Assembly (NCBI GenBank): GCA_020719045.1
Contig: DYQY01000004.1
Location: forward strand, 1-64,000
DNA: 64,000 nt
Reading direction: 5' to 3'
DNA from: Candidatus Termititenax sp.
Lineage (GTDB): Bacteria > Margulisbacteria > Riflemargulisbacteria > GWF2-35-9 > DYQY01
Of the stretch, positions 48,497-62,060 are shown in pieces (positions within the stretch are counted from its first letter, which is position 1; each line of letters opens with the position of its first letter). The notes under the pieces were generated by a model. That model was not told the DNA's origin. It saw only the letters and a program-made list of their open reading frames with translations, and made no database searches. The position numbers and the translations under genes are program-made.

Positions 48497-49207
48497 TCAA
48501 AATATAAACATCAAAATCATTGCTACTACTAAAGAGTAAATAGCAGTTGATTGCGCTACTGATTGACCCAAAAGCATAGTGGTTGTTACCGCTTTGCTTG
48601 ACTTGGCATTAAATCCTATCGAACTTGTTGCCATCTCCGCAGTTAAACCACAACCAAGACCAGGACCTATTGCTCCAAACCCCATAGATAGTCCAGCACC
48701 CAAAATAGCTGCATTATGAAGTAAAGACTGAGTATGTGTTTGAAAAATCAATAACAACGTAACAACCAAAGCAAAAATAACAGAAGTCTGCGTAACCGCC
48801 TGCCCAATTAACATACAAATCATTAAACCTCCAGAATTCTCAGGTTTACGACCAATACCTTCACAAGTTGCCCCGACTGCTAACCCAGCACCTACTCCAG
48901 GCCCAAGAGCACCAACACCAATACATAACCCAGCAGAAACATAAGCAAACATAGCTGTCATAGAAGTATCTCCACCTTTAAATAATAAAATTAAAGATAC
49001 TAACAAAGCGAAGATACCTGAAGTTTCTGTAACCGCTTGTCCAATAAGCATTGTTCTTAACAAAGTACCGCTTTGGTCAGGTTGTCTATTCATGGCCTTA
49101 ATTGCCTTACCAGCGGCATATCCAACTCCAGCAGCTGTCCCAAGTGCACCTATTCCAACAGCAAGACCAGAACCAACATAAGCACCAATTAACCCATAAC
49201 TTAACAT
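48497..49207 (-). CDS. Triple-hairpin c-like proteolipid with a single ion-site glutamate
   Basis: This 236-residue protein is three fused c-type hairpins (about 1-77, 82-156, 163-236), giving six membrane helices. Each helix 2 keeps the frame of the normal subunit: GQAVTETSGIF, GQAVTQTSVIF and GQSVAQSTAIYS. Only the first has the ion-binding glutamate (Glu61); the others have Gln140 and Gln219. The helix-1 site residues are Val28, Ala107 and Cys186, none acidic. Polar loops are kept in hairpins 1 (NRQPDQ) and 2 (GRKPEN) but lost in hairpin 3 (GFNAKSS). It resembles V-type rotor subunits with multiple hairpins per ion site, yet lies inside an F-type operon between atpB and atpE. A mixed ring with atpE is likely, as in Acetobacterium woodii. 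Confidence 0.93.
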   Translation of the reverse strand: MLSYGLIGAYVGSGLAVGIGALGTAAGVGYAAGKAIKAMNRQPDQSGTLLRTMLIGQAVTETSGIFALLVSLILLFKGGDTSMTAMFAYVSAGLCIGVGALGPGVGAGLAVGATCEGIGRKPENSGGLMICMLIGQAVTQTSVIFALVVTLLLIFQTHTQSLLHNAAILGAGLSMGFGAIGPGLGCGLTAEMATSSIGFNAKSSKAVTTTMLLGQSVAQSTAIYSLVVAMILMFIF

Positions 49208-51035: not shown

Positions 51036-51065
51036 TAAGACTTCACATTTAATTTAGAAACAAAA

Positions 51066-51090
51066 AAACCCTCATTACTGAGGGTTTTTT
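51066..51090. terminator. Bidirectional terminator
   Basis: The stem AACCCTC and GAGGGTT with loop ATTACT is followed by a T-run on the plus strand and, because an A-run precedes it, by a T-run on the minus strand too. It ends the 50799 gene on one side and the convergent 51116 gene on the other. Confidence 0.85.
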
Positions 51091-51115: not shown

Positions 51116-52906
51116 TTAGAAAGAATCCCAGTCAAATAAATCTTTAACTAATTTCTGTCCCATAGTTGTATTATAAATAATCTTTGCAAATTCTGCTCTA
51201 GTAATTGTTCTCTTTGGCTGGAATGTTCCGTCATTATAACCATTGATTAGACCATTATCTACAGCAACTTCAATATACTTAGTAGACCATCTACTAACAG
51301 AAACATCTTTAAATCTACTCTTTAATGCTTTATCAGGAATAGTTAATCCTTCTAAAATAACTAAAGCTGATACTAACTGTTCTCTAGTTAAACTCTCTTC
51401 AGGTGAAAACTCTGTCGCAGAAGTACCAAGCATCAGTCCTGTCTGTCCTACAAGCTGAATATAATCAACATATGGATGTTGTGCAATATCAGTAAACTTG
51501 TAGCCAGAAGATAAATTAATATCCTGAGTATTTAAGTTCTTTAAAGAACACAATACTTTAGCGTACTCTGCTCTAGTAACATTACCTTCAGGATTAAAGG
51601 TATCAGCTGTCTTTGGTCTTAATAACCCAAGAGTAGTTAATTCTTCAATATATTTTCTAGCCCAGTTATGCATATCAACATCAGCAAAAGACATTAAGTA
51701 AATGTTTCTTAACTTAAGCTTTTGAAGAACTTTACTATCTTTATCTAAAACCTCAATGGTTATAGCTTGCTTTCCATAGTCCTGGAACTTAATAGTAGAC
51801 ATGATTCTGCTATTCTTAATCTCTACATCTGTTCCATTAATCTTTACCTTAGCTACTTTTGGAACTACAGAACCAAGAACCTTGTGCATATTCTCATATG
51901 TTACAACTTTATCCTCTGGACTCTTTATCTGCATATACTCATCAGTATATACTTCCTCAGGTTTCATAAGGTCAAAAGCAATAGAAAAATAATGAGTGTT
52001 ATTTGCAGAAAAATCATTTGGATCTAGAGAATATGCATAATCAAATTTGATACCATCAAAATTGATTCCAACACCTAATGAAAAAATATTAACTGCTGAT
52101 ACATTATTAGTACCTGATGCCCACTTCTCATTACCATAACCAGCTCTAAAAGCTAGCATAGAGTTAGGTTGATACTCTGCACCAACTTTAATCATTGATT
52201 GTTGATCAACAATTCCATAATCCATAGAAAAGTCTAGTTTTTGATTCTTAGAGTATAAGAATGTACCAGCTTCTCTACCAATAAACCTGTAAGCGCCACC
52301 AAAGGTTAGCTTCTGTTGTAAATTATCTTCTCCACCACCATTTACTTTAATTTTTATAGGAAAAAAGTTTTGGTAAACTGCTGATAGTTTTAAAGCAGGA
52401 AACGCCTGATAAAGAATACCTAAATCAGCATTATAAACTGAATTATTAAAGCCATCTGCATTAGCGTATCTATACTTACCAGTTAATCCAAGAAATAATT
52501 TATCATCAACCTTAGCAGAAACACTACCTAAAAGTGAAATATCATTGTAACCAAGCATATTACTAAACACATATCTATCAGTATCCCAGGATGCTTGAGG
52601 TATATTAGTTCCAATATAGTAGAACCCTAACCCATAACTAATATCACCAGGGAAAACGACTGCACCATTAATAAGATTAACATCAGAAAATAAATTGCTT
52701 TGCATTAAGCCTACTTGAGCAATACTGTTTTGTCCCATTGCTGCAGGATTAACAAACACAGCAGAATAATCATCAACTAATGCTGAGTATGCATTACCTA
52801 CTCCAATACCTCTTGCGCTTGTATAACGATAAGATGGGTCAACAGAACCAGTCGCTAACAACAATCCAAACAAACTTACTACAAAACCAACCCTTAATGC
52901 TTTCAT
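51116..52906 (-). CDS. PorV/UPF0164-like outer-membrane barrel with C-terminal SLH domains
   Basis: This 596-residue exported protein has a signal peptide (MKALRVGFVVSLFGLLLATG). A FadL/PorV-like beta-barrel follows (about 25-315), starting RYTSARGIGVGNAYSALVDD and VNPAAM, with alternating strands. A short beta domain (about 320-400) leads to three SLH repeats from about 405 to the end: WARKYIEELTTLGLL, VDYIQLVGQTGLMLG and STKYIEVAVDNGLINGYNDG with TITRAEFAKII. SLH domains bind cell-wall polymers or peptidoglycan, so the protein may tether the outer membrane. In known SLH porins the SLH is at the N-terminus; here it is at the C-terminus. It follows the 52916 gene by 9 bases. Confidence 0.82.
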   Translation of the reverse strand: MKALRVGFVVSLFGLLLATGSVDPSYRYTSARGIGVGNAYSALVDDYSAVFVNPAAMGQNSIAQVGLMQSNLFSDVNLINGAVVFPGDISYGLGFYYIGTNIPQASWDTDRYVFSNMLGYNDISLLGSVSAKVDDKLFLGLTGKYRYANADGFNNSVYNADLGILYQAFPALKLSAVYQNFFPIKIKVNGGGEDNLQQKLTFGGAYRFIGREAGTFLYSKNQKLDFSMDYGIVDQQSMIKVGAEYQPNSMLAFRAGYGNEKWASGTNNVSAVNIFSLGVGINFDGIKFDYAYSLDPNDFSANNTHYFSIAFDLMKPEEVYTDEYMQIKSPEDKVVTYENMHKVLGSVVPKVAKVKINGTDVEIKNSRIMSTIKFQDYGKQAITIEVLDKDSKVLQKLKLRNIYLMSFADVDMHNWARKYIEELTTLGLLRPKTADTFNPEGNVTRAEYAKVLCSLKNLNTQDINLSSGYKFTDIAQHPYVDYIQLVGQTGLMLGTSATEFSPEESLTREQLVSALVILEGLTIPDKALKSRFKDVSVSRWSTKYIEVAVDNGLINGYNDGTFQPKRTITRAEFAKIIYNTTMGQKLVKDLFDWDSF

Positions 52907-52915
52907 GACTCCTCC

Positions 52916-55795
52916 TTATCTGGTTACCAGGAACTTGCTGGTACCTAACACAGACTTGCCGTGTACTATCTGAACAAAATATAAACCAATTGCTAACTTA
53001 TCATTGAAAGCATCAACACCATTGAAACTTATCTGATTATATCCAGTACTTCCACCAGTAAATCCTCTTGAATAGATGTTTCTCCATACTACTTGACCTA
53101 ATAGGTTGTAAACATAAACCTCAACATCACCTTGAGCAGTTAGCTCGTATGCAATATCCATATTACCGTTATTTGGGTTATATGGCATTGGGTAGCATAG
53201 TACCTTTGATCCTGGTTTTAAAGTTACGGTACCAGAGCTATCAGCTACCACCATTTTTTCAACTACATTTGACTTCATATCTGTAAAATCATCTCTTACA
53301 ACAAAAATATCTAACTCATTAATTCCTGAATCTAAAGTAACTGGAATTACAACCCTCTTAGAATAGTTAGTATTATCAGCTGGTACAGATATTGAGTTCT
53401 TTGTAACACCATTAGATTTAATATATAAAGTTACATTCCAAGTATTTGCATAACAATCAACAGAAACAGCTAAATCAACATTACCCTGTAAATAATCACC
53501 ATCTCTAACACTTCTTGTTACAGAACCTGCTTGGGAATATTGAACTGTGTTGTTAACTGTTAAGTATCCATTAATACTAAATAGTCCACCAAGTTGATAC
53601 AATGGTTTATCTGCAGCAGTTGCACTAGAATACATTCCTAAATTGTTTTCATTATAAGCAAACACTGAGTAGTAATAAACAGTACCATCAATCATAGGTT
53701 CTTGGAATGTTGTTCCAGAAGTAACTACGAAGCTTGTTCCTTCAGTTATACTTACTGGGAAGGTGCTTGTATTTGGATAACTTGTGACGTTTCTTACAAC
53801 CAAGTATGATGTTGCACCAATCGATTCTTCCCATGTTAATTTAGCAAATGGACCAAACACGGTTGCTTTTAAGTTCTGTACGTTTGCAGGTGTTCCATAG
53901 AAGAACTCTACATCATCAATATTAATCTGAGATTTGTCATTAGAACCATCTATCTTCAACTGAACAGCAACTGCATTCTTAAGTACATCGATTAAAGATA
54001 CCTTTGTTCCCCATGCACTATTCTGTGACATACTATTGAAATATATATAATAAGTATTCCATGTTGCAGTATTAGCGACTGAAACCATATTAGTATGTCT
54101 ATTGTAGTCAACATATACTGGAGAATCTATCTCTAAACCAATGTTAGCTGAACCATATGCTCTAAACTTAACACCACTGAAGCCAGAAATATTTTGAAGA
54201 TTAGTTGATACAGCATCTAATCCAAAGCCGATACCAACGAATGGTTTACTAAAAGCTGTATTCACATCATACGATACGAAAGCAACTTTATTAGAACCAT
54301 CAATAACAATACTCATTGTAACTTCAGAATTTCCATAGTTTGGAGAAGCCTTATCATTATAAACATAGTTATAGCCACCCCACTTATTCTGGTTACCGTT
54401 TTCGAAGTTTGTAATTACTCTTCCTTTTTCAAAAACTATTGAATTACCAGTACTTCCTGTACCCATATCACCAGAAACTAAGTATATCTCATCAACTTGG
54501 AACCATCCATTAGTGCCAGATACTTGAGGATAAGCCTTAAACTTAAGTGATAACATTCTTTGTAATGCTGTCTGTAGGCTAACCTGTGTTCCCCAGCTAT
54601 CCTGAGTAAAATGTGACAATGATATTACATATTCTTTCCAGTCATTAGTTAGTGTAACAACATTATAAAAATGATTGTAATCTGATATTACATCTGTTGT
54701 TGTTTCTAGCTCAACTGCAATACTTCCAGCACCTTTAGCAATAAATCTTATCGCACCAAAGGAAGCTATATTTCTTTCTGCTTTATTAGCTTTAAGATCA
54801 AGACCATATCCAGAGTAAATAGCACCTGCACCTTGAAGCACATAGTTTTGTCTATATGACTTTAAAGTACCAACTGCACCCTCTGACATAATCGAGTCCC
54901 CATATAAAGATTCATCATTTTTATATGAATAGTTATATCCACCAAGTTTATTAATTCTAAAAATTGAGCTACCTGCTTCAAAATCCTCAATTAACAATCC
55001 ATCAATAGTAGTTATATTTATTGTTGGATTAACTGTTGGAACAATTGGTCCTGTTGGAACAACTGGAGTAGTTGTAGGTGTACCCTCAAAAATAGTCAAA
55101 TTAGCTGTATTTAAATAAAGATCAATTACAGCAGGAACATAGTCTACCGTTAGTCTACTATCAAAACCAAATCCTTCTGACGAAGTCCAAGCCACTAACT
55201 CATAGCCATTTGGATTAGGAAAAACATTTCCTGATTCATCTCTAAATGAGTTCATATTGAAATATTGTCTGTAACCTAAAGAATAATCCCTACTAGTAGT
55301 ATAATCGTTTCTATAAAGAACAACCTGTGGAATGCTATATTCAAAAAGGTCATTAATAGCTCTAACAAAAACAAAAACATCATTACTTACTAGAATAGTA
55401 TTTGAGTCTAACATGTATACTTTATTAAGAACTAATTGACCACCTTGATCAATTGGATTCTCCGCGGTTCTTAAACTAAAATTTTGACCATTATTTAAAT
55501 ACTTACTTCCACCGCTATTAATCTGAAAAGTATAGTTTGTGCTTGCATCAAGAAACTTAACAACAATTATATGTATCTTATCAGAAACACTAGATCCTCT
55601 TAAATCATATGCTATGGTATTAGGTACTGTATTACCCCACTCAATGTATCCTTCTTCTGCTTGGTCTGTATACCAAACGACTGTGAAGCTTTTATCTGTT
55701 ACGTCAACTATCTGGATATTTTTTGGTGTTGATGCAAAGCTAAGTCCACTTATTACTAGAAGGAAAAAACTTAGTACTATTAATTTTAACTTCAT
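52916..55795 (-). CDS. Secreted FN3/jelly-roll protein with T9SS- or FlgD-like C-terminal domain
   Basis: This 959-residue exported protein has a signal peptide (MKLKLIVLSFFLLVISGLSFA). An FN3-like domain of the purple-acid-phosphatase type follows (VDVTDKSFTVVWYTDQAEEG). Two related jelly-roll modules resemble CBM11/CIA30 domains (about 265-440, IEDFEAGSSIF, and 460-630, ITNFENGNQNKWGG). Then comes another FN3 domain (about 635-730) and a C-terminal beta domain (about 865-959) with CYPMPYNPNNGNMDIAYEL and VYNLLGQVVW. That tail matches the pattern of type IX sorting or FlgD Ig-like domains. It is first in an operon with the PorV-like gene. Confidence 0.75.
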   Translation of the reverse strand: MKLKLIVLSFFLLVISGLSFASTPKNIQIVDVTDKSFTVVWYTDQAEEGYIEWGNTVPNTIAYDLRGSSVSDKIHIIVVKFLDASTNYTFQINSGGSKYLNNGQNFSLRTAENPIDQGGQLVLNKVYMLDSNTILVSNDVFVFVRAINDLFEYSIPQVVLYRNDYTTSRDYSLGYRQYFNMNSFRDESGNVFPNPNGYELVAWTSSEGFGFDSRLTVDYVPAVIDLYLNTANLTIFEGTPTTTPVVPTGPIVPTVNPTINITTIDGLLIEDFEAGSSIFRINKLGGYNYSYKNDESLYGDSIMSEGAVGTLKSYRQNYVLQGAGAIYSGYGLDLKANKAERNIASFGAIRFIAKGAGSIAVELETTTDVISDYNHFYNVVTLTNDWKEYVISLSHFTQDSWGTQVSLQTALQRMLSLKFKAYPQVSGTNGWFQVDEIYLVSGDMGTGSTGNSIVFEKGRVITNFENGNQNKWGGYNYVYNDKASPNYGNSEVTMSIVIDGSNKVAFVSYDVNTAFSKPFVGIGFGLDAVSTNLQNISGFSGVKFRAYGSANIGLEIDSPVYVDYNRHTNMVSVANTATWNTYYIYFNSMSQNSAWGTKVSLIDVLKNAVAVQLKIDGSNDKSQINIDDVEFFYGTPANVQNLKATVFGPFAKLTWEESIGATSYLVVRNVTSYPNTSTFPVSITEGTSFVVTSGTTFQEPMIDGTVYYYSVFAYNENNLGMYSSATAADKPLYQLGGLFSINGYLTVNNTVQYSQAGSVTRSVRDGDYLQGNVDLAVSVDCYANTWNVTLYIKSNGVTKNSISVPADNTNYSKRVVIPVTLDSGINELDIFVVRDDFTDMKSNVVEKMVVADSSGTVTLKPGSKVLCYPMPYNPNNGNMDIAYELTAQGDVEVYVYNLLGQVVWRNIYSRGFTGGSTGYNQISFNGVDAFNDKLAIGLYFVQIVHGKSVLGTSKFLVTR

Positions 55796-55889
55796 TATTA
55801 CACTCTCCTAAAGAATTCTTTCAATAATCTATCGAAAGAAAAAATCATAATTCCCATTTAATTATATTTATTTTTATGAATATATTTTC

Positions 55890-55918
55890 TATATAGATAG
55901 TATAAAGGATTGAATCAA
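55890..55918 (-). promoter_or_regulatory. Possible promoter of the surface-protein pair
   Basis: On the minus strand, TTGATT (55918-55913) is followed after 17 bases by TATATA (55895-55890). It would give a leader of about 90 bases before the 52916-55795 gene. The surrounding AT-rich sequence makes alternatives possible, for example a TATAAT nearer the gene. Confidence 0.4.
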
Positions 55919-55930
55919 AAAATCAACAAC

Positions 55931-55960
55931 AAAAGGGGGCACCAGATGGTGCCCCCTTTA
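55931..55960 (-). terminator. Terminator of the 2024-residue gene
   Basis: A 9-base perfect stem, GGGGGCACC and GGTGCCCCC with loop AGAT, lies 26 bases past the end of the 55986 gene. On the minus strand it is followed by TTTTGTTGTTG, a fair T-rich tail. It is the most GC-rich short stretch I noticed in the region. Confidence 0.8.
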
Positions 55961-55985: not shown

Positions 55986-58900
55986 CTACATGTCTTTCTT
56001 TGGAGTCCAATTAAGATCTTCCTTTACCTTAATCATAAAACCATAAGACTTGTATGTAGCACCAACTGTAAAATCAGTACCAGTATTATCATATCTGTAA
56101 CGTAACCAACCAGTATAATAATAATTGTCATAAACCCTAATTTCTTCAGCTCTCAAAGGCAAATCTAAATCATCTATCTCTCCATCGAGATTACGATCAT
56201 TTAGCTCCTTTAATAGTTCACTAGCTTTGTAAGCCTTACCTGCTGGTTTTCCTAACAAATTCCAACCATTTTTAAAAAAATATGATTGAGGCATACTTGC
56301 AGTAACAGAAGCACTTATTGCTTTTCTAACAGAACTATCAATATAATAAGATTCACCATAAGCAACTGTGAAATCGTCACTCATATAAATAAACTTTCCA
56401 TCATCTCTATTCCAAATGGCTGCATTCTTAATGGTTCCGGCACCAAGCTTAGTTTCAAGATATGCTACAATCTGACTTATTTTCTGACCACCTTCATTTA
56501 CAACAGAAAAGAAGTTCCATCCCTTAAGAACATTTCTCAAATATCCCTGGTTTGGATTAGTTCCGGTCAAATACTCTTCTAGATCATTCATTCCATCTTG
56601 GTCTGTATCAGCAATATCGCCACTTGGATTAATGTTTGCAACATTTGAATCTAAGTCGTAGAAAATTTCCCACCAATCAGGTAATCCGTCACCATCTGTA
56701 TCATCAGATGTTGGTACTGCGGATAATGATATCTCATCTAACTTAACACTGATATTTCCAGTACTAAATGCAGAGATAAATGAATATCCTACAAATGTTA
56801 AGTTATTTAAATCTAACACACTGTTTCCACTAGAAATAGTATTCTTCTTTTTAAAGTTACTTAATACTAATGTGTACCATTTCTTATTAGAAGTTACTAA
56901 TACTTGAGTAAAGCTGAAGACATCTCCATCTTTATCTTGTAACTGCATCTCAATCTTATCTCCAACTTTTCCGTTGCTGTTATCTATATACATTGCTACT
57001 GACATCATTCCTGCTGGCATTGTGTTTAGTGGATTATAGATATATGAACCTAAAGATCCTCCAAAATAATTTACAGCAAGTCCATTAATTAATAATGAGG
57101 TTGTTGGATATCCAGCTTGTGTAGATCTTGTTGCTGTTATTCCTTCAGCTGTCCATGTGTATCCAACTCTTTCAAAATTATCAATTAGTGGGAACCTTGG
57201 TGTCCACTGGTTTGGATTTGTTCTTGCAACATACTCTGATAGATCACTCCATCCGTCACCATCTACATCTCCGGTGTTAACAACATTTGGATTGATTCCA
57301 TACATTGTCTCATACCAGTTTGGTAGTCCGTCTCCATCTGTATCATCAGATGTTGGTGTCTTTGCAACACTTAAGCTGTCGATGTACATGCTAACATTTC
57401 CTGTCGCTTTTACTGAAATAACTTCCAATCTAATAAAATTAGTCTTATTAAATTCTTTTATTCCATTTCCAGTTGAACCAGAAACTAACTCGAATCTATC
57501 TAACATCATTGTTAAATATGTCCATTTGTTAAGATCGCTTATGTATTGATTAAACGCCCATACATCTCCATCAGTTTCAACTATTTTCACAGCCACTTTG
57601 TCTCCAACTTGACCCGAAGATAGTAGTAACATCTTTAATGATAAGTAGTCAGAAGTCCAACCTGAAACATCAGATAATACATCCTTCTGTACTCCACTTA
57701 TATAATAACTTCCTGTAGCTGTTCCACTTAGCAACATCGACTTCTGATAATTCCAAGATACTGTTGTATCTGTAGATGCAGATGTTTTTACTAATGTTGT
57801 TCCAGCATCAACTACCCATAATGTTAATCCATCTTCAAAATTATCTATCTCTGGGAATAGATTCTTAATTGTTGGATTTAATCCTCTTAAATACTCATCC
57901 AAATCAGTTATATTATCACCATCAGTATCCTTAAGTGACTGATCAGGATTAATATTAGCTACATTTGGATTTAATCCATACTGTGTTTCCCACCAGTTTG
58001 GTAAACCGTCTCCATCTGTATCATCAGACGTTGGTACCATAGATAATGATATCTCATCTAACTTAACTTTGATTGTTCCATTCTGTGTTGCAGAAATAAA
58101 TGAGTATCCTACAAATGTTAAGTTATTTAAGTCTAATGCACTATTTCCACTTGCAACTGAATTCTTCTTGGTAAAATTACTTAATACAAACGTATACCAT
58201 TTCCAATCAGAAGTTACCAATACTTGCGTAAAGCTGTATGCATCTCCGTCTTTGTCTTGGAATTGCATTTCAATTTTGTCTCCAACCTTTCCTTCTTTGT
58301 TGTTAATTAGCATTGCTACTGACTTATATGCTGCAGGCATAGTGTTTAGTGGATTATAGATATATGAACCTACAAATCCTCCAAAATAATTCACTGCAAG
58401 TCCATTAACTAATAATGATGTTGTTGGATATCCAGCTTGTGTAGATCTTGTTGCAGTTATACCTTCAGCCGTCCATGTGTATCCAGCTCTTTCAAAATTA
58501 TCAATTAGTGGGAACCTTGGTGTCCACTGATTTGGATTTGTTCTAGCAACATACTCTGATAGATCACTCCATCCATCTCCATCTACATCTCCTGTGTTAA
58601 CAACATTTGGATCAATTCCATACATTGTCTCATACCAGTTTGGTAGTCCGTCTCCATCTGTATCATCAGATGTTGGCACAGTAGATATTGAAATGTTATC
58701 TAATCTAAAATACACATCGCCTGTTGGTGTAGAACTTAAAATATTAATAGCAAGCTTTGTAACACCATTATCAAAATCCATAACTCCATTATTGTTATAA
58801 AGTTTTATCTTAAATTTATCTAACAACAATGTGTAATATGTCCAAACACTCTTATCTCCAAATGTCTGTGTAAATGAAAACTCATCACCATCAGCATCAG

Positions 58901-61900
58901 TAATAACAAACTCTACTTTATCACCAATACTACCTAAATTTTTAGCAACATACTTAAGAGATTTATAGTCACTTGTCCAATAACCAGCAGGAATATTTAT
59001 ATTCTTATAAATAGTTCCTCCATAGTAATTAACTGCTGGAGATTCTTCCTTTGTTTCAACATATATTGAATACAAAAGATTCCAACTTACACTACTCTCA
59101 GTCACTTTCTCATAAAAAATATCTACACTAGTTGTCTTGCCCCAAGAACCATTTACAGGCACACCAGCAACTAGTTCGAAATTATCTATTTCTGGAAAAA
59201 ATACTTTTTTAGTTGGATCAGAACCATTAATGAACTCTTGTAAATCAGTTAAACCATCACCATCTGTATCCTTAAGTGACTGATCAGGATTAATATTAGC
59301 AACATTTGAAGATAATCCATACTGAATTTCCCACCAGTTTGGTAGTCCATCACCATCCGTATCATCAGATGTTGGCACTGTAGATAATGATATTTCATCC
59401 AACTTAGCCTTAATAACTCCATTCTGTGTTGCAGATATAAATGAATATCCTACATATGTTAAGTTATTTAAATCTAATAAGCCATTTCCACTAGCAACTG
59501 TGTTCTTCTTAGTAAAATTACTTAATACAAACGTATACCATTTCCAATCAGCAGTTACTAATATTTGAGTAAAACTGTATGCATCTCCGTCTTTGTCTTG
59601 GAATTGCATTTCAATTTTGTCGCCAATTTTTCCTTCTTTGTTGTTAATTAGCATTGCGACTGACTTATATGCTGCTGGCATTGTATTTAGTGGATTATAG
59701 ATATATGAACCTACAAATCCTCCAAAGTAATTTACTGCAAGACCATTAACTAATAATGATGTTGTTGGATATCCAGCTTGAGTTGGTCTTGTAGCAGAAA
59801 TCCCTTCAGCAACCCATGTGTATCCCATTCTTTCAAAATTATCAATAAGAGGAAAATGTGGAGTCCATTGTGTAGGATTGGTTCTAGCAGAATACTCTTC
59901 TAAATCACTCCATCCGTCACCATCAGTATCTCCAAGATTTGCAACTAGTACATTCAAATTATTAGAAACTTCATACCAATTAGGAATCCCGTCTCCATCA
60001 GTATCTCCTGATATATTAGAAGTAGATACATTAATATTATCAACATATACGCTTACATTTCCTGTAGCAGTAGCTGATAACAACTCAACTCTAATATATG
60101 CTGTTTGATTAAATTGTTTAATACCATTGCCTGTTGATCCAGGTTTAATAGTAAATCTATCAAGCAACATGCCTAAATATGTCCATGCTTGAATATCGCC
60201 AATATATTGTTCGAATTGCCATACATCACCATCTGTTTCAATAAGTTTTACTGCAACTCTATCACCAACATTTGAATTTGCTTTAATAAGCATATTCAAT
60301 GTTTTATAATCAGTTGTCCAATCAGAAACATCAGATAAAATATCTTTTTGAATACCACCAACATAATAGTCAGTAGCTTTTCCGCTAATTAACATAGAAT
60401 TCTGATAATTCCATGAAACTTTTGTATCAGTTGTATTTGCAACTGATGTTGTAATAGTAGTTCCAGCATCTGCTATCCACTTTGTTATGCCTTTTTCGAA
60501 ATTATCAATCTCAGGAAAAGAACTCATTCCATCAGCTACAAAAGGATTTGTACCATTTAATATTTCATTATAATTATCAATACCATCGCCATCAGGATCT
60601 GCTTTAGCATCTGATGCTAAGTTAGGATTTAATCCATTTGCTGTTTCATCTGCATTTGGAATACCATCCATATCAGTATCTGATTCAATAGCTGGAGAAT
60701 AAGGATTATTTCTTGTTGTTACTAGTTCAATATTCTCAATTATAATTTTACCAGAACGACCTGCTTTACCAGTAGAAACTGCAAAACCAATCATAGGAGA
60801 ACCAGGATAAATAAGATTATATCCTGCAAAAACATCAATCATTTGCAATGGATTAAATACACTATCGCCTCCAACGTTATTCTTACTTAATAAAACCTGA
60901 CTAAGAGGAATATAAATATCTCTCCATTGACCATCGTTTTTCATAAGTTTTAAGTTATATACCCACTCATTATCATCAGAAGAATTAAAAGAAAAATCTT
61001 TATTATCATTATCTTTAATGTCTAACTTAAGATCTACTGGACCATCTCCAACATTCTTAACTGAGAACTTAATATATCTGTATCTTCCCCAGTCATATGC
61101 CTTGTTTGTTTTAATATTGCTACCACCGTAAAGTGCTGGCTCATAAAAAGTTGTTGAAAAATCATAAAGAAAGTAACCATTATATCCATCTTGGTCAGCA
61201 TTATATGCTGTTACTTCAAGTGCTTTTTGATATTGAGCATTTGTTGTAAGAGCTAATGAAAGGTTTCCAGACTTTTGCCATCCCAAGGTATCAACACCAT
61301 CAAAGCTATCAATAACAGGTATTGGATTCTCAAACATAGTCACATCTGCTCTTGAAACATTTAATGGAATCCTAAGTTCGGCTACTCTTTTACTTCCAAT
61401 ATTATTATACCCACCAGTATAACCTCTAGAGAAGTTCATAAAACTTACAACAAGAACATCTTCATTATCATTTTTACTAAAAAGGTTGGTATTTGCTTGA
61501 TTAAGGAAAGGAGCATTTACTGTTTCCCATTCATGAATAAATCCAGTAGCATCTGTTGTTATTCCAGATAATCCACTTCTAACAGCAGACCTTGTACCGT
61601 TAGGCTTCTCAATATACATCTCATAATAAACATTTTGAATATTTTCAGCTTGATAATATCCTACCTTTTCTATATAAGTAGTATTATTAACCTTTCCAGC
61701 AATATTTAAACCGCTTCCTGCAGTACCAGTATAGGAAGCTGACTTTACTGAATAATTACCAGATACAGTTGTTCCAGATTTAATTTGAAAACTATAGGTA
61801 GTATTTGGGTCACAGTTTACGTCTACATAATGCAATTTGAATTTTTTATCAATAATACTTGGATAGTACTGTACTCTTTTGTCTATAAATGTACCCTCAC

Positions 61901-62060
61901 CTGGTACAATTACGCTCCCCTCCTCCGCTATATCGCTTATCCAACTTATTGAAAAACTGTCTCCCCTTACATTAGTTATCCTAACGTCAGAGATTGCTGA
62001 TGCAAAACCCATTGTCATTAATACTAAAAAAACTGCTCCTCTTACTAATATGTTCCTCAT
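55986..62060 (-). CDS. Giant surface protein with thrombospondin-3 calcium repeats and repeated jelly-roll modules
   Basis: This 2024-residue exported protein has a signal peptide (MRNILVRGAVFLVLMTMGFAS) and an FN3-like start (TNVRGDSFSISWISDIAEEG). A first jelly-roll lies at about 250-450. Six modules of about 220 residues follow, starting near 514, 735, 952, 1182, 1401 and 1622, each opening with FPEIDNFE or FPLIDNFER. They are separated by Ca2+-binding DTDGDGLPNWWE-type repeats. The C-terminal 185 residues have two KGWN/NGWN blocks (LKGWNFFSVVNEGG, FKNGWNLLGKPAG). The jelly-rolls resemble carbohydrate-binding domains. Unlike the 52916 protein it shows no T9SS-like tail. Likely an adhesin or matrix protein. 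Confidence 0.78.
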   Translation of the reverse strand: MRNILVRGAVFLVLMTMGFASAISDVRITNVRGDSFSISWISDIAEEGSVIVPGEGTFIDKRVQYYPSIIDKKFKLHYVDVNCDPNTTYSFQIKSGTTVSGNYSVKSASYTGTAGSGLNIAGKVNNTTYIEKVGYYQAENIQNVYYEMYIEKPNGTRSAVRSGLSGITTDATGFIHEWETVNAPFLNQANTNLFSKNDNEDVLVVSFMNFSRGYTGGYNNIGSKRVAELRIPLNVSRADVTMFENPIPVIDSFDGVDTLGWQKSGNLSLALTTNAQYQKALEVTAYNADQDGYNGYFLYDFSTTFYEPALYGGSNIKTNKAYDWGRYRYIKFSVKNVGDGPVDLKLDIKDNDNKDFSFNSSDDNEWVYNLKLMKNDGQWRDIYIPLSQVLLSKNNVGGDSVFNPLQMIDVFAGYNLIYPGSPMIGFAVSTGKAGRSGKIIIENIELVTTRNNPYSPAIESDTDMDGIPNADETANGLNPNLASDAKADPDGDGIDNYNEILNGTNPFVADGMSSFPEIDNFEKGITKWIADAGTTITTSVANTTDTKVSWNYQNSMLISGKATDYYVGGIQKDILSDVSDWTTDYKTLNMLIKANSNVGDRVAVKLIETDGDVWQFEQYIGDIQAWTYLGMLLDRFTIKPGSTGNGIKQFNQTAYIRVELLSATATGNVSVYVDNINVSTSNISGDTDGDGIPNWYEVSNNLNVLVANLGDTDGDGWSDLEEYSARTNPTQWTPHFPLIDNFERMGYTWVAEGISATRPTQAGYPTTSLLVNGLAVNYFGGFVGSYIYNPLNTMPAAYKSVAMLINNKEGKIGDKIEMQFQDKDGDAYSFTQILVTADWKWYTFVLSNFTKKNTVASGNGLLDLNNLTYVGYSFISATQNGVIKAKLDEISLSTVPTSDDTDGDGLPNWWEIQYGLSSNVANINPDQSLKDTDGDGLTDLQEFINGSDPTKKVFFPEIDNFELVAGVPVNGSWGKTTSVDIFYEKVTESSVSWNLLYSIYVETKEESPAVNYYGGTIYKNINIPAGYWTSDYKSLKYVAKNLGSIGDKVEFVITDADGDEFSFTQTFGDKSVWTYYTLLLDKFKIKLYNNNGVMDFDNGVTKLAINILSSTPTGDVYFRLDNISISTVPTSDDTDGDGLPNWYETMYGIDPNVVNTGDVDGDGWSDLSEYVARTNPNQWTPRFPLIDNFERAGYTWTAEGITATRSTQAGYPTTSLLVNGLAVNYFGGFVGSYIYNPLNTMPAAYKSVAMLINNKEGKVGDKIEMQFQDKDGDAYSFTQVLVTSDWKWYTFVLSNFTKKNSVASGNSALDLNNLTFVGYSFISATQNGTIKVKLDEISLSMVPTSDDTDGDGLPNWWETQYGLNPNVANINPDQSLKDTDGDNITDLDEYLRGLNPTIKNLFPEIDNFEDGLTLWVVDAGTTLVKTSASTDTTVSWNYQKSMLLSGTATGSYYISGVQKDVLSDVSGWTSDYLSLKMLLLSSGQVGDKVAVKIVETDGDVWAFNQYISDLNKWTYLTMMLDRFELVSGSTGNGIKEFNKTNFIRLEVISVKATGNVSMYIDSLSVAKTPTSDDTDGDGLPNWYETMYGINPNVVNTGDVDGDGWSDLSEYVARTNPNQWTPRFPLIDNFERVGYTWTAEGITATRSTQAGYPTTSLLINGLAVNYFGGSLGSYIYNPLNTMPAGMMSVAMYIDNSNGKVGDKIEMQLQDKDGDVFSFTQVLVTSNKKWYTLVLSNFKKKNTISSGNSVLDLNNLTFVGYSFISAFSTGNISVKLDEISLSAVPTSDDTDGDGLPDWWEIFYDLDSNVANINPSGDIADTDQDGMNDLEEYLTGTNPNQGYLRNVLKGWNFFSVVNEGGQKISQIVAYLETKLGAGTIKNAAIWNRDDGKFIYMSDDFTVAYGESYYIDSSVRKAISASVTASMPQSYFFKNGWNLLGKPAGKAYKASELLKELNDRNLDGEIDDLDLPLRAEEIRVYDNYYYTGWLRYRYDNTGTDFTVGATYKSYGFMIKVKEDLNWTPKKDM
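56690..57360 (-). repeat. Internal DNA repeat, copy 1 of the jelly-roll/TSP3 block
   Basis: This block encodes the sixth module and its preceding calcium repeat. It matches 58010-58675 over most of its length. The match is closest at 57175-57360 against 58495-58675, where only a handful of bases differ. The copies are about 1.32 kb apart, in phase with a two-module unit. Confidence 0.8.
58010..58675 (-). repeat. Internal DNA repeat, copy 2 of the jelly-roll/TSP3 block
   Basis: This block encodes the fourth module and its calcium repeat. It is near-identical to 56690-57360 on one side and to 59350-59850 on the other. Long shared runs include the stretch that encodes VNGLAVNYFGGFVGSYIY. Confidence 0.8.
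59350..59850 (-). repeat. Internal DNA repeat, copy 3 of the jelly-roll block
   Basis: This block encodes the second module. It shares long identical runs with 58010-58510 but diverges in the calcium-repeat part beyond 59850. It is the most diverged of the three copies at that edge. Confidence 0.75.

Follow-up and report, generated by a model that had tools for sequence, protein, structure and literature searches.

A Gene Pair Joining a Sorting-Tailed Secreted Protein to a PorV-Family Barrel with SLH Domains Points to a Probable Divergent Type IX-Like Export Route in Margulisbacteria

Results

The Gene Pair and Its Surroundings

In the window, namely, the whole 64,000-nucleotide stretch of DNA that was analyzed, two ORFs lie next to each other on the minus strand, one (52916-55795) encoding a 959-residue secreted protein and the other (51116-52906), 9 bases downstream, encoding a 596-residue barrel protein. 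This confirms the earlier note, which had described a tailed gene followed by a PorV-like gene at these positions. The features of the region are the following:

52916..55795, minus strand: tailed secreted protein of 959 residues, presumed cargo of the PorV-SLH barrel (ORF; TIGR04183 tail)
52925..53179, minus strand: C-terminal T9SS type A-like sorting tail (TIGR04183, 30 bits)
51116..52906, minus strand: PorV-SLH gene, 596 residues, with a signal-like N terminus (by eye), a PorV/PorQ-family barrel, a short linker domain and three SLH domains (NF033709, PF00395)
51968..52822, minus strand: PorV/PorQ-family barrel region, residues 29-313 (NF033709 match)
51725..51934, minus strand: linker domain, residues 325-394, with a weak Glucodextran_B-like match (PF09136, 19.4 bits, below the cut-off of 27)
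51167..51709, minus strand: three SLH domains, about residues 400-580 (PF00395, three stretches; span from the NF033190 match)
55932..55959, minus strand: terminator-like hairpin between the upstream 2,024-residue gene and the pair (12-pair stem, T-rich tail)
51063..51090, minus strand: terminator-like hairpin just past the PorV-SLH stop codon (RNA fold)
55879..55926, minus strand: a pair of overlapping promoter-like sites ahead of the tailed gene (9 of 12 for each in a consensus scan)
55986..62060, minus strand: neighboring 2,024-residue TSP3-repeat surface protein with no recognized tail (PF18884, 86.4 bits)

The tailed gene and the PorV-SLH gene are thus flanked on both sides by hairpins, at 55959-55932 (RNA fold -25.1 kcal/mol, z -5.6) and 51090-51063 (-15.5 kcal/mol, z -5.7), with 0 of 200 shuffles being as good in either case. 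Terminator-like sites in the region are no more numerous than by chance (3 vs. 3.6 in shuffles), and promoter-like sites are rarer than by chance (39 vs. 61.8).

The order TSP3 protein, tailed protein, PorV-SLH protein is the same in genome G028 and, with shorter relatives of the TSP3 protein (1075-1230 residues), in G029, G031, and G032; in G033, the contig ends within the tailed gene. The TSP3 protein contains long internal repeats, as judged by eye, and is similar to the tailed protein at its N terminus, with a relative in G028 matching both. Elsewhere in the window (48497-49207, minus strand), an F-type ATP synthase subunit c carries three ATP-synt_C stretches in a single 236-residue chain, an arrangement unusual for a bacterium. 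The ORF list, read by eye only and without a scan of every ORF with Por/Gld models, is consistent with the statement of the earlier note that the window holds no Por core genes.

The PorV-SLH Protein

Residues 29-313 of the 596-residue protein match NF033709 (PorV/PorQ family, NCBIfam) with 92.8 bits, just above the cut-off of 90, and profile A4, built from 29 members of the PorV-SLH family, retrieved solved PorV from the PDB (6h3i_F, E 7.5e-7), together with the SLH domains of the S-layer protein Sap. The designation "PorV-like" given earlier is hence upheld. What had been missed are three SLH (cell-wall-binding) stretches at the C terminus (PF00395, 120.2 bits). The specific PorV model NF033710 gave 25.9 of 250 bits on this protein, while Pfam PF19572 (PorV) had no match in the genome, a result that is uninformative given that no control matched either.

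When 29 of the 30 best-scoring PorV-SLH loci were aligned (L043 being left out), PorV_fam matched all 29 proteins at E <= 0.001. At the same threshold, a match to the PorV-SLH protein was found in 72 of 74 genomes of the phylum. Some of these matches cover just the barrel or just the SLH part, and a single genome may hold as many as 31. At E <= 0.01, PorV_fam finds seven loci in the window's genome, of which two are weak (25.5 and 16.3 bits); the 25.5-bit locus also matches TraF_2 over the Pfam cut-off. PorP/SprF (PF11751) has no match in this genome and exceeds its cut-off (22.3) in 10 of 28 genomes, with at most 38.6 bits and at least once on an ORF of PorV-SLH size.

OmpM consists of an N-terminal SLH domain followed by a trimeric porin barrel. 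The window's PorV-SLH protein fails this layout, its SLH domains being C-terminal and its barrel matching the PorV family, and it is moreover paired with a tailed protein. The two do share the presence of SLH and an outer-membrane barrel in one chain, and in diderm Terrabacteria the outer membrane is tethered by OmpM barrels with SLH (PMC10628300). One alternative is accordingly that the PorV-SLH protein acts mainly as an outer-membrane tether or pore that replaces OmpM, that its tailed neighbor binds it but is exported in some other manner, and that the SprA-like protein described below performs an unrelated job. The weak matches of two unpaired PorV-family proteins of the window's genome to Toluene_X, of the FadL family, would fit such a role. 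Yet in many genomes the protein has 10-31 matches, some of them partial, and its best-scoring copies are usually preceded by a tailed gene, which exceeds the requirements of a tether. Neither the preference of the tails for PorU and TIGR04183 nor the SprA-like fold found in the same phylum (both below) is in line with this proposal, which is considered unlikely though not negligible.

The C-Terminal Tail

The earlier note also held that the secreted protein ends in a domain like type IX sorting signals. Indeed, residues 873-956 of its 959 match TIGR04183 (T9SS type A tail) with 24.9 bits on the protein, over the cut-off of 23, and with 30 bits in the genome search. Pfam Por_Secre_tail reached 17.5 on the same protein (cut-off 27), and weak matches to fn3 (17.2, cut-off 25) and CIA30 (13.4, cut-off 24) were seen. 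The suggestion that other proteins with the same C-terminal domain be sought was likewise borne out, with five TIGR04183 matches over cut-off in the window's genome; across the phylum, the model exceeds its cut-off in 73 of 74 genomes.

A profile of 22 tails from paired genes (see below) retrieved PorU (6za2) first from the PDB, with E 6.8e-5, and FlgD next, with E 0.014. When the 22 tails were compared with NCBIfam at E <= 0.01, TIGR04183 matched 20 and the PorU model 19, with FlgD-type models also matching 7-9; the choice of these tails rested on a custom profile that had been iterated on its own matches, the doubtful L033 and L043 being left out. The possibility that the tail is merely a FlgD domain was rejected on account of the preference of the tail profile for PorU. 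Counter to this, FlgD_ig outscores the T9SS models in Pfam on three subtilase tails of Saganbacteria type, and one further tail of the window's genome, on contig C9, scores about equally to both.

No PorV gene adjoins three tailed proteins of the window's genome, the open frames of which have 2,623, 3,985, and 16,989 codons. At G000:C3:61346-112300 (L061-L063), an open frame of ~16,984 codons ends in a TIGR04183-type tail, and a 3,300-residue piece of it matches bacterial Ig-like domains. To our knowledge, this frame is one of the largest bacterial ORFs.

Recurrence of the Pairing

Tailed genes and PorV-SLH genes occur together across the phylum more often than expected by chance. A tail is carried by 22 of the 27 genes directly upstream of PorV-SLH genes, as compared to 1 of 54 other ORFs and none of 30 PorV genes. 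The profile used for this count was seeded with six tails of the window's genome, such that the window's own tail is both in the seed and among the 22; a seventh tail from this genome (contig 3) was left out of the seed. The 30 PorV-SLH loci are the best-scoring ones rather than a random sample, and 27 had a same-strand upstream gene in view. The common order is tailed gene then barrel gene, overlapping or separated by short gaps.

Within the window's genome, four of the seven PorV_fam loci lie directly downstream of a tailed gene, namely, those on C28 (the window), C22, C9, and C16, the last being the 16.3-bit match. The tails of C22 and C16 were matched by profile A5 (E 2e-13 and 1.8e-9, respectively), for which the best score among 1,095 shuffled ORFs was E 0.0057. 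The tail of C9, where the partner is an S8 subtilase, was matched by TIGR04183 and not by A5.

A SprA-Like Giant Outer-Membrane Protein

A search of the genome for SprA had been proposed in the earlier note. The curated SprA/Sov model TIGR04189 exceeded its cut-off (200) in none of 28 genomes, giving instead weak, short, partial matches in 27 of the 28, of at most 30.9 bits (24.4 bits at best in the window's genome). By hand count, about 50 of the 67 matches fall in frames of 1,331-1,821 codons and most others in frames of ~850-1,100 codons. In the window's genome, the segments lie in a single-copy protein of 1,692 residues ending in ...KLIF (G000:C17:83740-88815). Relatives of this protein were found in 64 of 69 genomes, including 34 of 34 of high quality. 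Family members occur in Candidatus Marinamargulisbacteria (Margulisbacteria), which are the order-level relatives of the window's organism, in Saganbacteria/WOR-1 and in other Margulisiibacteriota; as the taxonomic scan relied on one short peptide pattern, absence outside the phylum was not shown. In G054 and G061, an extra weak match to the protein lies in a frame of ~1,020 codons. Frames of ~850-1,080 codons in G064:C15, G063:C1:1378515, G069:C4, and others contain TIGR04189 segments whose strength equals that of the segments in the SprA-like protein, and possibly represent a second related family.

Neither the single protein nor profiles A1 and A2 retrieved SprA from the PDB at E <= 10. Because these sequence searches failed to find SprA, the case for homology rests on predicted fold and on the weak TIGR04189 segments. 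Two members of the family were modeled. Model 1 covers residues 25-1224 of a Saganbacteria member (L128; 33-sequence alignment, pLDDT 78.0, pTM 0.49), and model 2 covers 1200 residues of a Marinamargulisbacteria member of the same order as the window's organism (L096; pLDDT 77.2, pTM 0.53). With Foldseek, the four SprA chains 8gl6, 8gl8, 6h3i, and 6h3j took ranks 1-4 for both models, with E 4.8e-18 to 2.0e-11 for model 1 (next match, 9.6e-6) and 1.0e-15 to 4.2e-9 for model 2 (next match, 2.4e-6). The margin of the SprA chains over the next match is thus about three or more orders of magnitude in two distant members. VIA-align aligned model 2 with 6h3i_A at Z 19.2, over 635 residues at 6.9 A, and with 8gl6_A at Z 19.2 but at 18.4 A, the best non-SprA match being BtuB (Z 15.7 at 19.0 A). 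For model 1, SprA (8gl6_A; Z 18.6, 635 residues at 9.6 A) ranked only eleventh, behind ten TonB-dependent or other barrels with Z at least as high as that of SprA but covering just 351-421 residues at 13.5-15.0 A.

Nearly all alignment rows are common to the two models, which are therefore not fully independent. Cut at 1200 residues, they contain 31 and 32 strands, respectively, of at least 10 residues according to their element lists. The SprA barrel has 36 strands (PMC10994853), with which the predicted numbers are compatible, a single barrel not being established. The fold of the 1,692-residue protein itself was not predicted; it is homologous to the modeled members and aligns with those of the same order over its full length, with 41-46% identity over the conserved half. 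On the strength of these models, the giant protein is best read as a remote relative of SprA. The search proposed in the earlier note was therefore without success as regards the curated model and gave SprA as the best fold match in two family members.

The wide distribution of the SprA-like protein also bears on a second alternative, that the PorV-family barrel itself moves its neighbor across the outer membrane, the two forming a two-partner system without SprA. That the barrel gene commonly follows the tailed gene, either overlapping it or after a short gap, is what such a system could be expected to display. With a SprA-like protein in 64 of 69 genomes, however, and with PorV-type barrels serving as carriers and SprA as the pore in the known system (PMC10994853), this explanation is regarded as highly improbable.

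Sortase and Motor Components

No match to a C25 peptidase (PorU type) was detected in the window's genome, such that the search for PorU suggested in the earlier note was negative in this respect. The C25 model does match in 2 of the 28 genomes searched (G034:C19 and G030:C211; L129, L130, L149). In G034, the frame that contains the match is 3,856 codons long, also has a tail at its end and has a PorV-family gene as its neighbor.

Of the 33 loci of the SprA-like gene, 16 were classed as Saganbacteria-type on the basis of their short-type alignment. A tail-bearing gene convergent with and adjoining the SprA-like gene was found in 14 of these; in the remaining two (L116, L121), the contig stops after at most about 140 bases. 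Each of the three such neighbors checked is an S8 subtilase. No immediate tailed neighbor was seen in the other 17 loci, L096 having a tailed gene three genes away. By inference, the tail-bearing subtilase could be a replacement for the C25 sortase PorU.

As for the motor, GldM (PorM) was over cut-off in none of 28 genomes, with weak matches in two relatives, and GldL (PorL) had no match in the same 28; the search included no known positive genome for either. These results pertain to a third alternative, according to which Margulisbacteria possess the full canonical T9SS, with motor, ring and sortase having diverged beyond the reach of curated models. That SprA was missed by its own curated model and yet suggested by fold is a precedent for such divergence, and the weak GldM-like matches point the same way. 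Against this, the C25 model is able to find matches in 2 of 28 genomes and finds none in that of the window, and GldL is without a match in all 28, albeit without a positive control. Judged by sortase and motor alone, a full canonical system is held to be improbable.

Near the SprA-like gene, a few genes away, there is a run of FliG-like and tailed-protein genes (L053:4071-7956; L052, G000:C17:92204-103956; L134-L137, L149, L151-L153), comprising a FliG-like protein of ~500 residues with a membrane anchor (read by eye), a second FliG-like protein and a tailed protein of 2,522-2,623 residues. MotA and MotB genes lie inside the run in G000, G028, and G032 and a few kb away in G031 and G033; FliG-like, MotA, and MotB genes also occur together in G012, G025, and G026. 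Since the genome has a separate flagellar-type FliG (G000:C17:221672, 137 bits), the FliG-like genes of the run are extra copies. Downstream of a second MotA/MotB pair (L056; G000:C11:2163-10339), the same strand carries two CheY-like genes (by eye) and, further along, genes for a TPR protein and a 1,084-residue protein and a PorV-family gene.

A FliG/MotAB operon as the motor of the whole phylum was rejected, given that FliG_C is without a match in 15 of 28 genomes, every one of which possesses the SprA-like protein. There remains the speculation, itself doubtful, that Margulisbacteria hold an old, separate type IX branch with wall-anchor-fused carriers that is driven in Marinamargulisbacteria by a flagellum-derived FliG-like/MotA/MotB motor rather than by GldLM. 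Were this so, the motor might also drive gliding.

Discussion

The gene pair of the window is probably one cassette of an outer-membrane export route of divergent type IX-like character that occurs across Margulisbacteria. This reading draws on the two genes and their recurrent pairing as observed, and on family membership of barrel and tail, the SLH fusion, the predicted SprA-like fold and the wide presence of the SprA-like protein as computed. The tentative claim of the earlier note, a possible T9SS-like export path or relative thereof in this organism, is supported to the extent that PorV and a type A tail were recognized by sequence and a SprA-like protein by fold; the curated SprA model and C25 gave no such support. 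By its outer-membrane parts the system is a relative of T9SS, and it is not a demonstrated canonical T9SS.

In the proposed route, Sec would carry the tailed protein across the inner membrane. The Ig-like tail at its C terminus would then be recognized at the SprA-like giant barrel (G000:C17:83740-88815) by the docked cognate PorV-family barrel, after which carrier and cargo may leave the translocon together, the carrier remaining as a permanent surface anchor of its cargo. The SLH domains of the carrier, presumed periplasmic, would attach it to the cell wall. Export, docking, anchoring or wall binding and the side on which the SLH domains lie are all inferred, no experiment having been performed. 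In Flavobacterium, PorV docks at the lateral opening of SprA and its loops bind the cargo tail, with energy freeing the carrier-cargo complex (PMC10994853).

With the Bacteroidota T9SS, in which SprA-PorV handles cargo bearing a type A CTD (PMC10994853), the Margulisbacteria system shares a SprA-like giant barrel, PorV-family barrels and TIGR04183-type tails. It differs in that its SprA is detectable by fold only; in its several to many PorV-family copies, often beside a tailed gene and fused to SLH; in the lack of a C25 match in the window's genome and of detectable GldL and GldM (without a positive control); and in its occurrence in a phylum outside FCB. The gene order is reminiscent of type B cargo, whose gene is commonly followed directly by that of the cognate PorP/SprF carrier; this carrier is thought to remain with the cargo as its surface anchor, in some cases along with a wall-bound partner, PorE (PMC12618676 and PMC9143113). 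Here, by contrast, a PorV/PorQ-family barrel goes with a type A-like tail, the carrier itself bears the wall-binding part in the form of fused SLH domains, and PF11751 is without a match in the window's genome. Because type A-like tails pair with cognate PorV-type carriers fused to SLH, carrier and anchor are proposed to be united in one protein. The PorV-SLH protein is, accordingly, best read as a carrier dedicated to one cargo that doubles as a wall anchor, with both export and wall binding being inferred.

A 2024 paper describes T9SS genes as absent outside the FCB phyla (PMC11285876). No paper joining Margulisbacteria with T9SS or type IX secretion was found, nor one joining PorV, S-layer homology and type IX secretion, most subscription papers and all bioRxiv preprints lying outside the search. 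The main text of the Margulisbacteria genome paper (PMC6349859) does not contain the words secretion, outer membrane, S-layer, flagell-, motility, or gliding.

If the proposed reading is true, then a type IX-like machine extends, by way of an uncultured marine member of the Margulisbacteria, beyond the groups thought to confine it. If nearly all the Margulisbacteria genomes searched do encode a SprA-like translocon together with PorV carriers and type A tails, views of the origin or the spread of this machine would shift, curated models might be suspected of overlooking it in other groups, and a reduced natural version would be on hand in which to ask which parts are essential. Finally, the PorV-SLH fusion provides a testable proposal for how exported proteins may be retained at the cell surface, namely, by a carrier that is also the wall anchor.
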